Origin: Treponema sp. Marseille-Q3903
Lineage (GTDB): Bacteria > Spirochaetota > Spirochaetia > Treponematales > Treponemataceae
Assembly (NCBI RefSeq): GCF_014334335.1
Contig: NZ_JACSEU010000001.1
Coordinates: 2,108,001 to 2,172,000, forward strand
Reading direction: 5' to 3'
Length of the DNA: 64,000 nt
Part shown: positions 9,377-20,061 of the stretch, piece by piece
Position numbering within the stretch: position 1 is the stretch's first letter
Layout of the letters: the number at the start of each line of letters is the position of its first letter
Position numbers and translations under genes: made by a program
Notes under the pieces: model-generated
Told to the model about the DNA's origin: nothing
Database searches by the model: none
What the model saw: the letters and a program-made list of their open reading frames with translations, nothing else

Positions 9377-10315
9377 ATGAAGATACATTTCCGCCGTATT
9401 TCACACAGGCTTTGAATTCAAGTTTTTTTATTTATTTTTCCCATTTAACAAATTTTCGTTGTATAATACAGAAGTGAGACTGTTCATCTATTCATTGCAG
9501 CGGGAAATAACTCAAATAATTTCTGATCATCTTTCAAATGAAGGGCATTTGTGTTTGACGTTTGACGAGCAATCTCATTTATATTCAACAATCAAAGACT
9601 TAAAAAAACACCCTGACTTATTGATTTTGGATTTCCGCGTCTTCAATCATGATACATTCAATATATTTTCATATTTTGAGAGATTCGAAATAAAACTTCC
9701 CGTGCTGTTTTACAATGATCCATGCCTCACGAGGACAACACTTGCGGAACACTGGAAATCTCAGATTGATTTTTTGCAAGGCTGTTACATAGATTTTGAC
9801 GAAGAAAAATATATGCCGCTTTTTAAAAGCCTTCAAAAACTGATAGAATCAAAGGAATTCAAACCGTACATCGCCTTGCTTCAAGAGCCTCAGCCTGTCC
9901 CGCAAGAATTTATCCGCGATAAATATACGCTAGATTATTTACAATACAACAAAGATGACTCGATACTGAATTTTAAAGAAAGAAACAATCTTTCAAACAG
10001 CCTTTTTTATCTTTTATCGATATTGCAAAAAAATAAAGGGATTTCTCTGTCGTTGAAAGATATCGCAGAATTATACAAAAAAGATGATAAAAAAATAACG
10101 GTTGAATCACTTAGAGTTTTAATTTCAAAATTGAAAAAGGCAATAAGAACTGATAGAGACTGCAATTTTCTTATAAACAAAGAACTCGATAGATATAGAT
10201 TTGTAAAATATAAAAATTAAACAAAAAAGTTGCCGGAAATTATTTCGGGAGCCATCATAAAATCAGCTTAACTTGCAAACGTGCAAAGGCATGTCAGTGC
10301 TAGAGACGGGAGTTA
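9377..10315 (+). repeat. Left copy of a 0.94-kb inverted repeat
   Basis: Almost identical to 13158-14095 in the opposite orientation. It covers the response-regulator-like gene plus about 95 bp downstream. The encoded proteins differ at three positions seen by eye (F/S, A/V, D/N). On the downstream side identity stops exactly at a GTTA tetranucleotide (10312-10315), after which the copies read TGTG and GAGC. Confidence 0.85.
9459..10220 (+). CDS. Response-regulator-like protein with OmpR-type winged helix, copy 1
   Basis: About 250 residues. The N-terminal part resembles a receiver domain (DLLILDFRVF with a candidate acceptor Asp, then LPVLFYND); the C-terminal 90 residues (LSLKDIAELY to RYRFVKYKN) look like a winged-helix DNA-binding domain. 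No sensor kinase is adjacent. The first possible start is a TTG at 9459, but TATAAT at 9462-9467 is followed 6 bp later by a GTG at 9474, so the transcript may begin at that codon and be leaderless. A near-identical second copy lies inverted at 13252-14085, so one of the two could regulate the intervening MATE and flavodoxin genes. Confidence 0.65.
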   Translation: MYNTEVRLFIYSLQREITQIISDHLSNEGHLCLTFDEQSHLYSTIKDLKKHPDLLILDFRVFNHDTFNIFSYFERFEIKLPVLFYNDPCLTRTTLAEHWKSQIDFLQGCYIDFDEEKYMPLFKSLQKLIESKEFKPYIALLQEPQPVPQEFIRDKYTLDYLQYNKDDSILNFKERNNLSNSLFYLLSILQKNKGISLSLKDIAELYKKDDKKITVESLRVLISKLKKAIRTDRDCNFLINKELDRYRFVKYKN

Positions 10316-13157: not shown

Positions 13158-14095
13158 TAACCCCCGTCTCTAGCACTGACGTAGCCCTTGCACGTTTGCA
13201 TGCTGTGCGGATTTATGGTGGCTCCCGAAATAATTTCTGGCATTTTTTTGTTTAATTTTTATATTTTACAAATCTATATCTATTGAGTTCTTTGTTTATA
13301 AGAAAATTGCAGTCTCTATCAGTTCTTATTGCCTTTTTCAATTTTGAGATTAAAACTCTAAGCGATTCAACCGTTATTTTTTTATCATCTTTTTTGTATA
13401 ATTCTGCGATATCTTTCAACGACAGAGAAATCCCTTTATTTTTTTGCAATATCGATAAAAGATAAAAAAGGCTGTTTGAAAGATTGTTTCTTTCTTTAAA
13501 ATTCAGTATCGAATCATCTTTGTTGTATTGTAAATAATCTAGCGTATATTTATCGCGGATAAATTCTTGTGGGACAGGCTGAGGCTCTTGAAGCAAAGCG
13601 ATGTACGGTTTGAATTCCTTTGATTCTATCAGTTTTTGAAGGCTTTTAAAAAGAGGCATATATTTTTCTTCGTCAAAATCTATGTAACAGCCTTGCAAAA
13701 AATCAATCTGAGATTTCCAGTGTTCCACAAGTGTTGTCCTCGTGAGGCATGGATCATTGTAGAACAGCACGGGAAGTTTTATTTCGGATCTCTCAAAATA
13801 TGAAAATATATTGAATGTATCATGATTGAAGACGCGGAAATCCAAAATCAATAAGTCAGGGTGTTTTTTTAAGTCTTTGATTGTTGAATATAAATGAGAT
13901 TGCTCGTCAAACGTCAAACACAAATGTCCTTCATTTGAAAGATGATCAGAAATTATTTGAGTTATTTCCCGCTGCAATGAATAGATGAACAGTCTCACTT
14001 CTGTATTATACAACGAAAATTTGTTAAATGGGAAAAATAAATAAAAAAACTTGAATTCAATGCCTGTGTGAAATACGGCTGACATGTATCTTCAT
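13158..14095 (-). repeat. Right copy of the 0.94-kb inverted repeat
   Basis: Inverted counterpart of 9377-10315. The ends match to within a few bases: both begin at ATGAAGATACAT and end at GTTA. The flanks differ completely. The intervening unique segment is 2.84 kb and could invert by homologous recombination. Confidence 0.85.
13252..14085 (-). CDS. Response-regulator-like protein with OmpR-type winged helix, copy 2
   Basis: Same protein as at 9459-10220 apart from three substitutions (S for F in FERFE, V for A in TLAEH, N for D in ELDRY). The frame extends 24 codons further upstream (HTGIEFKFFYLFFPF) because of a change in the flank; that extension is probably not translated, since the TATAAT and the GTG 6 bp after it are conserved here too. 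It may regulate the flavodoxin-MATE genes, or simply be a duplicated cassette. Confidence 0.6.
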   Translation of the reverse strand: MSAVFHTGIEFKFFYLFFPFNKFSLYNTEVRLFIYSLQREITQIISDHLSNEGHLCLTFDEQSHLYSTIKDLKKHPDLLILDFRVFNHDTFNIFSYFERSEIKLPVLFYNDPCLTRTTLVEHWKSQIDFLQGCYIDFDEEKYMPLFKSLQKLIESKEFKPYIALLQEPQPVPQEFIRDKYTLDYLQYNKDDSILNFKERNNLSNSLFYLLSILQKNKGISLSLKDIAELYKKDDKKITVESLRVLISKLKKAIRTDRDCNFLINKELNRYRFVKYKN

Positions 14096-14197: not shown

Positions 14198-14608
14198 TCA
14201 GGCTAGTTGTTGAAGACTCGTACATATCTTCGTTACAGTCTCTGCAACCTTCGCTTCCGGTATATTGCTTAATTTACCACACGAGGAATCTATTGTAAAC
14301 TTCAAGTCATTCAAAAGATTGATAACTTCATCGGGAATACCGGTGTCCTTTCTATTGCCAAAAATGATTATATAGTTTTTCTTTCCTGTATGCTGAATAT
14401 CCATATAAAAAGTATATGCAGCATACATAAAGCCATCCAATACAGCGCAAGGCTCGTCGTAGGATGTTGATTCATAATACAATAAAACCGATGTTTTTCC
14501 ATCTAAATTGACGCGGATCAAAAAATCACATCTTTCTACTATAATGCGAATCGAAAAAATCAGCAGCAGCCAGATTAGGTCCATCTTCACTAAATGCGAT
14601 AAAGACAA
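14198..14608 (-). CDS. Hypothetical protein, last gene of the cassette array
   Basis: 136 residues from a TTG at 14608. The first 20 residues (LIWLLLIFSIRIIVER) are hydrophobic, then comes a soluble part with KKNYIIIFGNRKDTGIPDEV. No family recognised. The start lies about 40 bp from the end of the attC-like site at 14647, the short leader usual for integron cassettes. A hairpin with arms GGACGAT and ATCGTCC lies just downstream (14159-14193) and may terminate transcription. I see no attC after this gene. Confidence 0.5.
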   Translation of the reverse strand: MSLSHLVKMDLIWLLLIFSIRIIVERCDFLIRVNLDGKTSVLLYYESTSYDEPCAVLDGFMYAAYTFYMDIQHTGKKNYIIIFGNRKDTGIPDEVINLLNDLKFTIDSSCGKLSNIPEAKVAETVTKICTSLQQLA

Positions 14609-14646
14609 ATCAATGTTAAAGAAAAATATACCCCATCGGGTACTCC

Positions 14647-14707
14647 GCTTAATATTCGCTTAACCTATGACGGGCGTACCACCGTTGCCCGGTTAAAGTG
14701 GTTAGAT
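14647..14707 (-). other. attC-like recombination site A
   Basis: Read on the - strand it begins with ATCTAAC (fits RYYYAAC), ends with ATTAAGC (GTTRRRY with one mismatch), and has complementary inner arms (CACTTTAACC / GGTTAAGCG) around a GGGC...GCCC stem. It starts 9 bp beyond the stop of the SAP-domain gene, the usual attC position. Confidence 0.7.
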
Positions 14708-14715
14708 GAACTTCT

Positions 14716-15309
14716 CTATGTATATTTTTCCGCACGTCGGGGTATTTTGATTTTTTTCCAAGTTATATAATCTTTTTTGACCTTCATATCTTTTAGCTTA
14801 TTCCATGAGTCCAAAGCATCTCCCCTTGTTGCATTTTTTTCATTTGCAAGATATTCACTTATAAAATTGTTAAATTTGCAGGATGGAATTTGCGGAAGCT
14901 TTCCTTGAGTTTCGTTTAACCGAATATACTCACGAACGATATCATCATAAGTTATTTTTTCACCATGAGAAAGTTTATTTTCAATCCAGCGATTAAGCCA
15001 ATACTTTGCACCCAATTTCGGTTTTAGTTCAGGAACACGTTTATCCATTTCACTATATATGAATTCCCATGTTTCTTTTGTGTTGCTAAAATCTTCAACA
15101 TAACTATGATTATTCAATATGTCTCTGTGCCGGCTTTTACTCCGATAACTATTCTTTTTATTTACTGTTCCGGTTTCAAGAAAATGAATAATCATCTCTT
15201 CAAGCTGATCTTTTCGTGTTTTTGAATCAAAAGGAATTCCAAGCGATTTTGCTAACGCTTTGAGTTCGCTCATGTACCAATATTTATTTTCGAATTCTTT
15301 TATTGTCAT
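14716..15309 (-). CDS. SAP-like domain protein
   Basis: 197 residues. The N-terminus (MSELKALAKSLGIPFDSK with KDQLEEMI) fits a SAP-like helix-extension-helix motif, often nucleic-acid binding. The rest has RHRDILNN and WNRLKD-like helical segments as in SAP-containing proteins with a DUF6434-type extension; that subfamily name is from memory. It overlaps the stop of the DUF3781-like gene by 4 bp, so the two form a two-gene cassette that ends at attC site A. Function unknown. Confidence 0.6.
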   Translation of the reverse strand: MTIKEFENKYWYMSELKALAKSLGIPFDSKTRKDQLEEMIIHFLETGTVNKKNSYRSKSRHRDILNNHSYVEDFSNTKETWEFIYSEMDKRVPELKPKLGAKYWLNRWIENKLSHGEKITYDDIVREYIRLNETQGKLPQIPSCKFNNFISEYLANEKNATRGDALDSWNKLKDMKVKKDYITWKKIKIPRRAEKYT

Positions 15310-15506
15310 AGAGCTTTTTTCTTATGTGCCGTGATTATTGTATCACTGTATGCATTAACAGTTATCATAATATCCTCGATACTTATATACCAATTTTTTA
15401 CTTTTCTGATTATTGAACTTCTCTTATCAAGAATTTTATTTTTACACCGCTCAATAACATCTTTGGTATCTAAATCAAGATTACGTTTTATTCGCTCAAT
15501 ACCCAT
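15306..15506 (-). CDS. DUF3781-like small protein
   Basis: 66 residues. LDLDTKDVIERCKNKIL followed by KNWYISIEDIMITVNAYS and TIITAHK matches the pattern I know for DUF3781, a small family of unknown function often found in accessory DNA. It overlaps the SAP-like gene, and both probably share one transcript within a cassette. The start lies about 110 bp from attC site B. Confidence 0.65.
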   Translation of the reverse strand: MGIERIKRNLDLDTKDVIERCKNKILDKRSSIIRKVKNWYISIEDIMITVNAYSDTIITAHKKKAL

Positions 15507-15613
15507 TCCAGTTGTATGATTTTTTTCTTAATTTTTATACAGAATTTCAGAAATGTGTTCAATAATGATTGTATATCCGCATATTATTTTATTTTGCATG
15601 CGACAGCATGTCC

Positions 15614-15676
15614 ATCTAACAACTGGTTGTACCGCAACGGGCTTGACCCGTTGTCGGCTACGAACCTTTGTTATGT
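15614..15676 (-). other. attC-like recombination site B
   Basis: On the - strand it begins ACATAAC and ends GTTAGAT (perfect GTTRRRY). Inner arms AACAAAGGTTCGTA and ACAACCAGTT pair imperfectly, and the centre is a CAACGGG/CCCGTTG stem. It begins 3 bp beyond the stop of the ToxN-like gene. Confidence 0.75.
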
Positions 15677-15678
15677 GA

Positions 15679-16197
15679 TTATTTCTTATAATTCCTACAA
15701 GCTTCTTCTACTTTCTTAAAATCAATTACAATTTTTCCTACAGGAAACTCTTCTTCAGAAGAACTACATTTTTTTTCATAAAGATTCTTTGCAGTTTTCT
15801 CAATTTTATCTCGGTTCTCTTTACAGAAATTATATTCAGCAAGCATAAGAAGTTTATAACTAAAATCACCTTCATCATTGATTTTGTAAAGTGAAAGCTC
15901 GGATTCAGGAACCGGTATCATGCTGTTAAAGCGTAGTGTACCGTACAGCTTTTCCTTGCTTCGAAGATATATCGTTGTAAGATTATTCTTTTTGATTTTT
16001 CCATTCTCATAATCCTTGTCTTTTGGCGATGACATTGGAACGAAATATTTAAATCCGTTTATTTCCGTAAGAATTCCAACATATTTTCTGTGATAAGTTC
16101 GTTCCTGAGGTTTTTTCTGCATTACATGTCTTTCTATTTTCAAAAGATACTCAACATATTCATCGCTTACAATGTAAAAAATATTGTCTTCTGTCAT
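15679..16197 (-). CDS. toxN: ToxN/AbiQ family type III toxin
   Basis: 172 residues. Family features of the ToxN/AbiQ endoribonucleases are visible: an N-terminal YIVSDEYVEYLLKIERHV, then RKYVGILTEINGFKYFVPMS followed by SPKDKDYENG (the SSPK motif with catalytic-region Ser/Lys), and a C-terminal helical part. Such toxins cut RNA and are held inactive by repeats of a small RNA (ToxI), acting as addiction or phage-defence modules. Directly upstream are a promoter, three 34-35-bp repeats and a terminator, exactly the ToxIN order. An attC site follows the stop. Length fits the family (about 160-200). Confidence 0.85.
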   Translation of the reverse strand: MTEDNIFYIVSDEYVEYLLKIERHVMQKKPQERTYHRKYVGILTEINGFKYFVPMSSPKDKDYENGKIKKNNLTTIYLRSKEKLYGTLRFNSMIPVPESELSLYKINDEGDFSYKLLMLAEYNFCKENRDKIEKTAKNLYEKKCSSSEEEFPVGKIVIDFKKVEEACRNYKK

Positions 16198-16210
16198 GCG
16201 TTACTCCAAT

Positions 16211-16236
16211 AAAAAAAGGCGACTATTAAAGTCGCC
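16211..16236 (-). terminator. Terminator between toxI repeats and toxN
   Basis: Arms GGCGAC and GTCGCC around a TTTAATA loop, followed on the - strand by a run of seven T (16211-16217). In known ToxIN loci such a leaky terminator lets little toxin mRNA form relative to antitoxin RNA. Confidence 0.8.
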
Positions 16237-16237
16237 C

Positions 16238-16341
16238 GTTAAGTTCTCCAGTTAGGGTCGGAGCGTACCCAGTTTAAGTTTTCCGCTCAGAGTCGGAACG
16301 TACTCAGTTTAAGTTTTCCACTTAGGGCAGGAATGCTCCCA
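16238..16341 (-). ncRNA. toxI: ToxI-like antitoxin RNA: three tandem 34-35-bp repeats
   Basis: Three consecutive units at 16307-16341, 16272-16306 and 16238-16271 (35, 35, 34 bp). Each ends on the - strand with GGAAAACTTAAAC or a close variant and begins TGGGAGC, TGAGTAC or TGGGTAC. They are diverged (about 70-80% by eye) but aligned without gaps. ToxI-type antitoxins of type III systems are made of 2-6 repeats of 34-37 nt that fold as pseudoknots and bind ToxN; number, length, strand and position before the terminator and toxin all match. Confidence 0.8.
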
Positions 16342-16349
16342 ACAGTTTT

Positions 16350-16378
16350 AATATAACATTACAAGTTTATGCCGTCAA
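16350..16378 (-). promoter_or_regulatory. Promoter of the toxI-toxN locus
   Basis: On the - strand TTGACG (16378-16373), 17 bp, TATATT (16355-16350). The predicted start near 16343 falls just before the first repeat. Confidence 0.75.
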
Positions 16379-16434
16379 GTATTATCTCATTCAACTGTAG
16401 GCATTCAGCTTATTCAACTTTCCTCGAAATATTT
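16379..16434. other. Gap between toxI promoter and the broken gene
   Basis: Two copies of ATTCAAC (a possible recombination half-site on the - strand, GTTGAAT) occur here, but no matching left half. A cassette boundary is expected here and is not clearly visible. Confidence 0.3.
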
Positions 16435-17834
16435 TTATTTGCCATGCTGAATTCCTTTTATGCTGAAAATTAAGTCGAACTGCGGTACAACTTGAACTCC
16501 TGCAGAGACAGAAGTGTACTCAAATGTACCTGTGTACCTCAAGAAAACATCGTTCGCATATTTTTCTATTGCAGTCAAATCGTAAACACTGCGAATATAT
16601 ATCATATCTCCATGGAAATTTTGAGCAAGGAAGGTTTCGTTGCCTGTCCATTGGTGGACAGAAACATCATTTGCAAGATATATACAGTTTCTGTCAAGAC
16701 CATAAGGATTTAAAATTGCAGGCAATTCTTTTAACTGAATATTGTTGTTTTTAGCAAGCAATTTCGCAATCTCATTGTATGCTGATTCGTTAAAATATGG
16801 TTGGTCATAATTTTCTTTTATATAATCAGCAATTACATTTACGTTTTTTGAGGCAACGACCGCTTTGAATATTTTTGCTTGTTTTTCTTTTTCCAAACGG
16901 TCATTCTGTGCAGCCCGCTTTTTTAATTCTTGCATAACATTATATTCTTGTAAGATTTCATTAAGTGCCAGCAACTTTTCTTCTTCCGTAGAAATATTTA
17001 AAACAATTTCTTCTTTATTTATTGAATCGGATTTATTTGCTCCAAATTTATGCGATGTAAGAATTATTTCTTCTGCAGCTTCTGTATTTTCTCTTGTTTT
17101 ATAACCCTTTACTATAATCGGAATCTCAAAAATACTATCATCAACTTCTGAATTGATTTTCTTTATCATCTGTCTGAAATAATCAATGTCTCCGAGTTTT
17201 TGTTTTTTCTGAAAACTATGATTTTTTATCCACTCGTTTTGGTTTTGAACTGCTTTTTCTTCAAAAAGTTTGTTGTAAGTTTTGTTTCTGATATCAAGTC
17301 TGAAATTCCAGGCAAACAAGACTTCCCAAAGAGCTTTTATGTCATTATCAAAATAAATATTCGTTCTAAGTCCGGCTGTTATTTTTTCGCCCATATAACC
17401 GACAAAGTCTTCAAAAATTAGATTATTATTAATTGGCTATAAAGAAGCCCTGCTTCCATTACTATTGGAATCATCGGGAATGCACCATGAATTCCACCTC
17501 CCAAACTTATATCAAAAAATTGTCTCTTTGTTAGGGCAACTGCTGAATATGAATTTTTTAAATAGAATCCAAATACATTATTTTTTTCAATGGTAGAGCC
17601 GTATCCATAAATAAAATTTGCTAATTTAAAATTTATTAAAAGATTTCCATTCGCACCACCACCAAACTGTGATTCAATGTCTGTACCAGAATATTTTTCT
17701 TCAAAAGCAAGAAAAATCTCGGGACTGACTGTAAAATCAATAGACGGCTTATTTCCGAGATATTCCGCAAAAAGCGAAACAGTTACAAAAATTTCAATTA
17801 CTTCAAGAATTAATTTCTTTTTCATAAAACGCAC
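16435..17834 (-). pseudogene. Exported protein gene broken by a frameshift
   Basis: Two frames read as one protein. The 5' part (17418-17834) starts MRFMKKKLILEVIEIFVTVSLFAE, a signal-like segment, then has alternating strands as in an outer-membrane barrel (FLAFEEKYSGTDI, GNLLINFKLANF). It ends at an AT-rich run (AATTAATAATAATC). A -1 shift continues through FEDFVGYMGEKITAGLRTNI into 319 more residues with a coiled region (LKKRAAQNDRLEKEKQAKIF). The fragments are unlikely to be independent genes because GYMGEK...YF continues the strand pattern. Family not recognised. Confidence 0.55.
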
Positions 17835-18377
17835 CTACCTTATCTTAAGACTTTTTTGTATATGGTTTGTCGATTTTTCAATTAATTTATTAAATTCACA
17901 GATTGCAATTTGATTTTTTTCTTTGAATGAATCATAAGATTCTTGCAAAAAAATAGCTGATATTAAATCTCCATCTATGATTTCATCTTCATTAGGATCT
18001 TTATTTTTCAAAAAATCATTATGAAGTTTTCTGATTTTATCCAAGATATTACAATAATCTTTCCGACATTTCTTGCTTGCATAAATGCTGAATTCCGATT
18101 GCATATTTTCCAGAACCGACAACATCTTGCCGCTGAATTGTTGATACGGTTCTCTTTTCAATAAAAACAGAATATTTAGAAATTTCAAATACAATTCTTT
18201 TTGACGGTCAAATACTTTTTTATGCTTATAATCTCTTAATGCAAATTTTACAGTTGCATAAGCAATTATAATAGGAAAAATAAAATCTTTGAGGAGAAAG
18301 CAAACTATTTCCATGAGCAAATCCCAGCTTTGTCGCAAATCCACAAGGTTCAGAATGAACGAGAGGATTTGCGGCAA
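17835..18377 (-). CDS. Hypothetical membrane-anchored protein
   Basis: 180 residues. One or two N-terminal membrane segments (IVCFLLKDFIFPIIIAYATV) are followed by a basic, helical cytoplasmic part. No family recognised. It directly precedes the broken barrel gene with no gap (stop at 17835, next start at 17834), so they are one transcriptional unit. An 8-bp-arm hairpin (GGCAAAGG/CCTTTGCC) overlaps its start codon region at about 18373-18400. Confidence 0.5.
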   Translation of the reverse strand: MPQILSFILNLVDLRQSWDLLMEIVCFLLKDFIFPIIIAYATVKFALRDYKHKKVFDRQKELYLKFLNILFLLKREPYQQFSGKMLSVLENMQSEFSIYASKKCRKDYCNILDKIRKLHNDFLKNKDPNEDEIIDGDLISAIFLQESYDSFKEKNQIAICEFNKLIEKSTNHIQKSLKIR

Positions 18378-18511: not shown

Positions 18512-18793
18512 ATGTTAGACTTTTGGTTAAGAGTAAAAGACAAGTTAGATTTTCAAGACTCAACACAAAGAGATTTAGCTCAAAATATAAATGAAAGTTA
18601 CAATACATTGCAATCATGGATAAATCGCGATAGACTTCCAAACGCAGAGCAAGCCGTTAAAATTGCAGAAGCCCTTAATACTTCTGTAGAATTTTTAGTA
18701 ACCGGAAAATCTAATAACAGAAAAAATGACCATTCAAAAACTGTAAAACTACTTGAACAAGCTATAGAAAATTTACAAAAAGAAATGCAGTAA
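18512..18793 (+). CDS. XRE-family helix-turn-helix regulator
   Basis: 93 residues with a standard Cro/C1-type domain: STQRDLAQNINESYNTLQSW then LPNAEQAVKIAEALNTSVEF. The C-terminus is a short helix. It is the only gene of the array on the + strand, facing away from its neighbours, and ends just before attC site C. The paired inverted repeats upstream suggest autoregulation. Similar small repressors occur in cassettes and prophages. Confidence 0.8.
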   Translation: MLDFWLRVKDKLDFQDSTQRDLAQNINESYNTLQSWINRDRLPNAEQAVKIAEALNTSVEFLVTGKSNNRKNDHSKTVKLLEQAIENLQKEMQ

Positions 18794-18824: not shown

Positions 18825-18968
18825 ACATAACATTCGCTTATCCTGCATTTGCGCCTTTACCGATGCGTATAGCAGCGGCAAAGTTGGCGCGAAAGTTGCG
18901 GTGCCGTATAGGCACTTTAAGCAACTTTCGTGACAAAACAAATGTCAGCGTTGAAGTGGGTGTTAGGC
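18825..18968 (-). other. attC-like recombination site C (long type)
   Basis: Read on the - strand it begins GCCTAAC (perfect RYYYAAC) and ends GTTATGT. The outer arms CACTTCAACGCTGACATTTG and CAAATGCAGGATAAGCG pair imperfectly, the extrahelical-base pattern of attC. The centre is long. The gene stop for the PfkB kinase overlaps its first bases. A GCGCCC/GGGCGT hairpin lies just outside at 18805-18823. Confidence 0.8.
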
Positions 18969-19904: not shown

Positions 19905-20061
19905 TGCTTATCCTGCATTTGTGACTTTGCCGATGCGCATAGCAGCGGCAAAGTTGGCGCGAAAGTTCATAAAAACGGACACGGATGTTCATTCTTAATA
20001 AGGCGACCGCTCAAGCAACTTTCGCGCAAAAACAAATGTCATGTTGAAGCGAGTGTTAGAC
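19905..20061 (-). other. attC-like recombination site D (long type)
   Basis: On the - strand begins GTCTAAC (perfect RYYYAAC), overlapping the stop of viaA, with arms CGCTTCAACATGACATTTG and CAAATGCAGGATAAGCAATG nearly as in site C, and the same ACTTTCGCGC-type central arms. The right core (after ATAAGC) is degenerate, so this site may recombine poorly. Confidence 0.7.

Follow-up and report, generated by a model that had tools for sequence, protein, structure and literature searches.

Can an integron carry a toxin-antitoxin system whose antitoxin is an RNA? This question is raised by a locus on the minus strand (16378-15614) of the window, a 64-kb stretch of DNA (C1:2108001-2172000, C1 being the contig) from a spirochaete that is kin of rumen Treponema. 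The locus is very probably a type III system of the ToxIN family that occupies the 3′ end of a stretch of several genes bounded on either side by an attC, all of it within what remains of a second integron that lacks an integrase. The anatomy, the ToxN family, the covariation of pairing, the attC, the integrase with its array and the recurrence beside attC can be read directly from the DNA. An earlier note had claimed a promoter, repeats, a terminator, ToxN and an attC on this strand, and each of them lies where it had been placed. In the list below, the antitoxin (ToxI) units are written in the pseudoknot frame 4-3-4-1-4-5-4, that is S1, loop, S2, spacer, S1′, loop and S2′, in nucleotides (nt).

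16378-16373 and 16355-16350, minus strand: promoter-like pair TTGACG and TATATT, spacer 17 nt
16316..16340, minus strand: core of ToxI unit 1, GGGA-GCA-UUCC-U-GCCC-UAAGU-GGAA; S1 3/4 pairs with an A.G mismatch, S2 4/4
16281..16305, minus strand: core of ToxI unit 2, GAGU-ACG-UUCC-G-ACUC-UGAGC-GGAA; 8/8 Watson-Crick
16246..16270, minus strand: core of ToxI unit 3, GGGU-ACG-CUCC-G-ACCC-UAACU-GGAG; 8/8 Watson-Crick
16211..16237, minus strand: terminator-like hairpin between toxI and toxN, stem 16237-16217, then seven T
16204..16207, minus strand: GGAG, likely ribosome-binding site, 6 nt ahead of the ATG, read directly
15679..16197, minus strand: toxN, 172 amino acids (aa), open over its full length
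15614..15676, minus strand: attC, R′ GTTAGAT at 15620-15614, beginning two bases past the toxN stop codon

The 172-aa open reading frame (ORF) matched the Pfam family ToxN_toxin (1.1e-38, 133 bits, the cut-off being 25) and, in PADLOC, AbiQ (4.2e-40). Its PDB matches at E ≤ 1 were four structures (4ato, 6e-22; 2xd0; 7d8o; 4glk), which are three ToxN and AbiQ, in line with the ToxN/AbiQ type proposed earlier. In the alignment with 2xd0, R37, S56, S57 and K59 stand opposite Lys33, Thr52, Ser53 and Lys55 of ToxN-Pa. Four of the five active-site positions of ToxN-Pa, as given in the available part of PMC5086642, are kept or similar in the window protein. Ser in place of Thr at the Thr52 position is the AbiQ state according to the same part of that source. 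Arg at the Lys33 position is found in E. coli clusters 4 and 5. Among 75 complete distinct ToxN proteins, S57 was present in all 75 and K59 in 74. By its sequence, the window protein is a ToxN-family endoribonuclease.

Tandem Repeats Finder (TRF) gave a period of 35, 2.5 copies and 81% matches at 16239-16327. The pseudoknot cores begin every 35 nt, at 16340, 16305 and 16270, which agrees with the three tandem 34–35-bp repeats of the earlier note. Pairing in the frame is 8/8 for units 2 and 3 and 7/8 for unit 1. The stem changes between units are two-sided (GAGU/ACUC versus GGGU/ACCC; UUCC/GGAA versus CUCC/GGAG). The strict 8-of-8 frame occurred 18 times on the two strands of the window, units 2 and 3 accounting for two of these. 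For unit 1 the looser 7-of-8 frame is required; it occurred 164 times per strand, and at a few other places in the window, too, at least three of its starts cluster within 80 nt.

Across 40 distinct units from 21 arrays, Watson-Crick cells reached 148/160 in S1 and 156/160 in S2, whereas the maxima of 10,000 shuffles of this set were 108 and 138. Covariation was counted on 22 units that we chose as sharing one frame, other frames being left out. In these units 96.0% of cells were paired (79.1% when shuffled, 46–64% when slid), and two-sided changes affected 7/8 pairs (shuffled 3.8) and 33 cells (shuffled 9.2, slid at most 6). The covariation score was 0.524 against 0.202 in shuffles. The three unlike units thus appear, from these alignments, to share one H-type pseudoknot through compensatory changes, the fold that the earlier note had put forward for checking. 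The window array has two linkers of one and the same sequence (AACUUAAACU), which fits reports that ToxN reads single-stranded tails. A ToxI array with seemingly unlike units, two of which fit the frame, was also seen outside the spirochaetes, in Ruminococcus (L039). The upstream repeat GGTCTCCATTAACC... of the ToxN relatives L081, L083, L084, L086, L088, L090, L095, L096, L098 and L100 does not fit the frame.

The attC-like site noted earlier just past the stop codon proved to be a real attC on the toxN strand. It scored 69.8 bits (E 1.4e-15) in a whole-genome scan with R1, a covariance model built from 17 attC of this genome with the window site included, and it was 84–90% alike to array attC in blastn. 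The genome encodes an integron integrase, IntI (C1:681914-682861, 487 bits, no stops), behind which 25 attC of at least 46 bits lie in C1:684335-723739. The window locus is 1.44 Mb from this integrase along the contig. All three ToxN of the genome end at a same-strand attC. The two further copies are both in the array; one has three strongly unlike, pairing units, and the other (L015, C1:698198-698662) is interrupted by an in-frame stop and has a ToxI of one unit. The surroundings of the window locus are given below.

16435..17394, minus strand: 319-aa ORF ahead of toxIN, without Pfam match
17418..17834, minus strand: 138-aa ORF, without Pfam match
17835..18377, minus strand: 180-aa ORF, without Pfam match above cut-off
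18512..18793, plus strand: 93-aa helix-turn-helix protein (HTH_3)
18825..18968, minus strand: upstream attC with inserted palindrome, R′ GTTATGT at 18831-18825, R1 48.9 bits
18963..19904, minus strand: PfkB-family kinase gene, part of the preceding cassette, Pfam PfkB 1.6e-24
15306..15506, minus strand: DUF3781 gene, first past the toxIN attC, Pfam 1.2e-22
14716..15309, minus strand: SAP-domain gene, DNA 84% identical at C1:680812-681475, near intI
14638..14719, minus strand: degenerate end resembling an attC, 79% alike to the copy near intI in 85 columns; the attC label is our reading, and R1 gave no match there
14472..14612, minus strand: remnant of the DNA from the intI stop to the attI-like site (75% in 144 columns), without intI

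The upstream attC (18968-18825) follows the PfkB gene and is absent from the whole-genome scan list. It bounds, with the toxIN attC, a unit of 18830-15620, about 3.2 kb, in which four other ORFs accompany ToxIN. Past the toxIN attC lie the DUF3781 gene and then the SAP-domain gene. In the main integron, copies of the leader (79%) and the SAP gene (84%) lie directly 5′ of intI, and a 141-bp segment beyond the window SAP gene matches, at 75% identity, the DNA that separates the intI stop from the attI-like site. The locus was read as a relic integron platform because this intI-to-attI-like DNA is kept while intI and the attI core are gone; judged by these remains, it is the relic of a second integron without integrase. 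The earlier claim of packaging as an integron cassette stood for the attC and the type III system and needed refinement in that ToxIN is not a cassette alone but shares the stretch with four other ORFs in a relic integron.

Several other observations concern these sites. A palindromic element, which resembles a small mobile repeat, lengthens attC or attC-like sites at window 18884-18936 and 19954-20030 and at C1:693642-693797 and 704942-705101. At about 20061-19897 (minus strand), just before the PfkB gene, a sequence resembling an attenuated attC was seen by eye; it contains the same palindrome and lacks a clear R′. The attI-like cores flank intI, one on each side (C1:680650 and 683007). Phage records gave no match for window 14700-17400. 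An inverted duplicate, 97% identical, lies at window 9377-10315 (plus) and 13158-14095 (minus) and covers a gene for 277 aa that matched Trans_reg_C below threshold.

What precedes ToxIN varies among relatives (L-numbers denote loci fetched from this and other genomes). We read lipoprotein-like ORFs ahead of it in L016, L056 and L087; a 99-aa ORF precedes it in L035 and an acyltransferase in L036, L077 and L127. Of four cargo proteins scanned against Pfam, the acyltransferase alone matched. ToxIN as a cassette by itself was rejected, since other ORFs come first in every examined stretch with an upstream attC, namely the window and L016, L035, L036, L056, L077, L087 and L127. L157 and L158 have the acyltransferase (85%) and promoter in common and then carry different ToxIN classes, single-unit and three-unit. 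ToxN was absent from the fetched stretch in all 12 loci with cargo homologues (acyltransferase, L160-L165; 158-aa ORF, L176-L181). Because cargo is shared by different ToxIN classes and its homologues occur without ToxN, ToxIN looks, on this comparison, like an exchangeable tail behind cargo genes. In this genome, a broken acyltransferase gene (C1:723858-724924, L164) lies past the last strong array attC, with no ToxN in the fetched stretch.

The recurrence of ToxN beside attC was assessed in fetched loci. Their 126 rows, less 11 re-fetched places and 16 exact duplicates, gave 99 non-duplicate ToxN rows, three of them from Firmicutes; the loci taken in exclude many short fragments from the genus-group scan. 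In that group of 200 genomes, ToxN was above the cut-off in 83 and the integron integrase in 58. In an order-level sample of 291, 48 genomes matched, seven of these outside the genus group. An attC starting between −5 and +5 nt from the toxN stop was present in 14 of the 99 rows, from 11 genomes; among the 14, L066 is weak (23.5 bits) and L127 is a toxN fragment. In L063 the attC lies 67 nt from the stop. In a tree of 75 proteins, complete attC-adjacent ToxN occupy four starred, well-supported clades, and the attC label changes at least six times. This tree is a quick one, with 30/72 branches open and long-branch warnings.

ToxIN could also have landed beside an attC by chance, with no tie to integrons, which we consider very improbable. 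It would fit the 85 of 99 ToxN rows that have no attC within 5 nt, and the close relatives L022, L024 and L026-L029, for which no attC past toxN was reported. However, all three ToxN of this genome end at same-strand attC, as do the 14 rows from 11 genomes, and L016, L035, L036, L056, L077 and L087 have an additional upstream attC. It is also very improbable, in our view, that the locus has decayed, with repeats that drifted apart and a toxin that is no longer guarded. The surrounding integron is indeed a relic with degenerate attC ends, and the sister ToxN in the array has its in-frame stop, but the window toxN is open throughout. Between the window and eight relatives the 108-nt array was 95–99% identical, although the fourfold sites of toxN were only 38–83% identical; 6/108 array columns vary and 0/48 stem columns. 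Decay of the repeats was rejected on these grounds, and their divergence is, as the alignments indicate, a conserved, compensated state. The arrays of L020, L021 and L101, read by eye, agree with that of the window. It is extremely improbable that the repeats are not ToxI at all but another leader or operator ahead of a ToxN-like enzyme. In Rfam nothing was found at E ≤ 1 except a sub-threshold SraG on the opposite strand (E 0.48), and nested folding gave a different structure; yet the stem pairs covary, and the unit length, the place before terminator and toxN and the pseudoknot layout are those of known ToxI in the available parts of PMC5086642 and PMC8860590.

Other points weigh against an integron-borne ToxIN system or parts of it. 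The promoter pair has 10/12 consensus matches, but three such sites occur in the region against 3.0 expected from shuffles, so the scan is not above chance and proves nothing alone. TTGAC and TATATT are retained, by eye, in all ten close relatives with upstream sequence (L019-L022, L024-L029). The terminator-like site (1 against 0.6 expected) is likewise weak alone; the hairpin and T run lie between repeats and toxin, as expected for ToxIN, and the stem in L029 is altered on both sides (by eye). The active-site Tyr29 of ToxN-Pa aligns with R33, a miss. The unit limits were set by eye, which favours pairing; unit 1 has its A.G mismatch, and S1 of some relatives has C-A or U-C mismatches. Further pair types in the 22 units numbered 12 against 11.8 in shuffles, with 307/500 shuffles as high. 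The nested fold of the transcript is a cross-unit structure (z −2.22), from a program that cannot form pseudoknots. In a group test, the starred branches alone force one attC-label change, and there may have been one old ToxN-attC association with later losses. R1 gave no attC in the five loci from other genera, the other two of the seven outside genomes being left out, and a search of 59 genomes with the locus DNA turned up neither an empty nor an excised site.

The earlier note had called the divergence of the repeats unusual. The units do differ, but unlikeness of this kind is common in the multi-unit arrays of the relatives that were read. Automated unit chains hold false links (terminators, AT-rich stretches), and unit numbers were verified by eye. 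All 13 arrays that were typed as having unlike units show a difference between neighbours in one stem or more, and their pairing is better within units than between them; several of these arrays are close kin. Identical units were found in two of the 15 multi-unit arrays typed (L105, L109). Class A had three units in 12/12 complete arrays. In a single-unit clade (e.g. L036, L049, L059, L066, L074), the space from promoter to terminator accommodates only one pseudoknot. In the clade of L105-L111 and L123 the number ranges from one to three, and L106, L110 and L111 have two unlike units each. For antiQ, 0.8 repeat was inviable and 1.8 sufficed, while ToxI-Pa required 2.5, according to the available part of PMC5086642; natural one-unit loci are therefore worth testing.

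By analogy with the family, transcription from the promoter would pass three unlike pseudoknot units and mostly end at the terminator, and read-through would yield the endoribonuclease ToxN. ToxN would cleave the RNA in the identical linkers, and the freed pseudoknots would keep it inactive. Upon cassette loss, or phage shut-off of host transcription, ToxI would be depleted and ToxN become active. The cassette would thereby hold a module for addiction and abortive infection that is driven by its own promoter. This scheme takes from the family its predictions of toxicity and rescue, of how and where the RNA is processed, of phage defence and of movement by IntI acting in trans. We speculate, with considerable doubt, that the arrangement may be a selected design, in which compensated stem differences and constant linkers would prevent mispairing and recombination and so fix the unit number, with ToxIN as a swappable addiction tail behind exchangeable cassette cargo. 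The 13 arrays with unlike neighbours, the constant three units of class A and the different ToxIN classes behind the cargo of L157 and L158 agree with this idea. In the clade of L105-L111 and L123, like units and changing number are not neatly linked, and for this we lowered the weight of the idea.

A 2025 review table gives integrons for type II systems and not for type III in the available part of PMC12548467. Treponema chromosomal integrons with an integron integrase and a cassette array are described in PMC3607928, in whose available main text a word search found no occurrence of toxin, antitoxin or ToxN. No type III system in an integron appeared in the titles and abstract openings of the literature searched, a scope outside which the main type III survey, PMC3401426, falls; an account of unlike or single-unit ToxI may already exist in that survey. 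If the integron-borne ToxIN reading is true, integron-borne toxin-antitoxin systems would extend to RNA antitoxins, and ToxIN would be hitching behind cargo genes within cassettes. Compensated unit differences and natural single-unit loci would make it testable why type III antitoxins are tandem and how many units are needed.

In type II toxin-antitoxin cassettes of chromosomal integrons, the module stands beside attC and is thought to stabilise cassettes. The window locus resembles them in that its toxin-antitoxin module adjoins attC, and differs in its RNA antitoxin and in the placement of the module behind other genes. The genome resembles the Treponema integrons of PMC3607928, as far as the available part describes them, in having an integrase with a cassette array. 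By sequence, the toxin belongs to the ToxN family, like ToxIN of Pectobacterium, Bacillus thuringiensis and E. coli and like AbiQ. The 35-nt units and the order toxI-terminator-toxN are as in the ToxIN family (34–36-nt units, same order; PMC5086642, available part), and the pseudoknot layout is like that of E. coli ToxI, an H-type pseudoknot with 4-bp stems (PMC8860590, available part). Unlike in the known ToxIN and AbiQ systems, the units of the window array differ in their stems yet keep pairing, relatives have a single unit (whereas 0.8 repeat of antiQ was inviable; PMC5086642, same part), and the locus sits at an integron attC.
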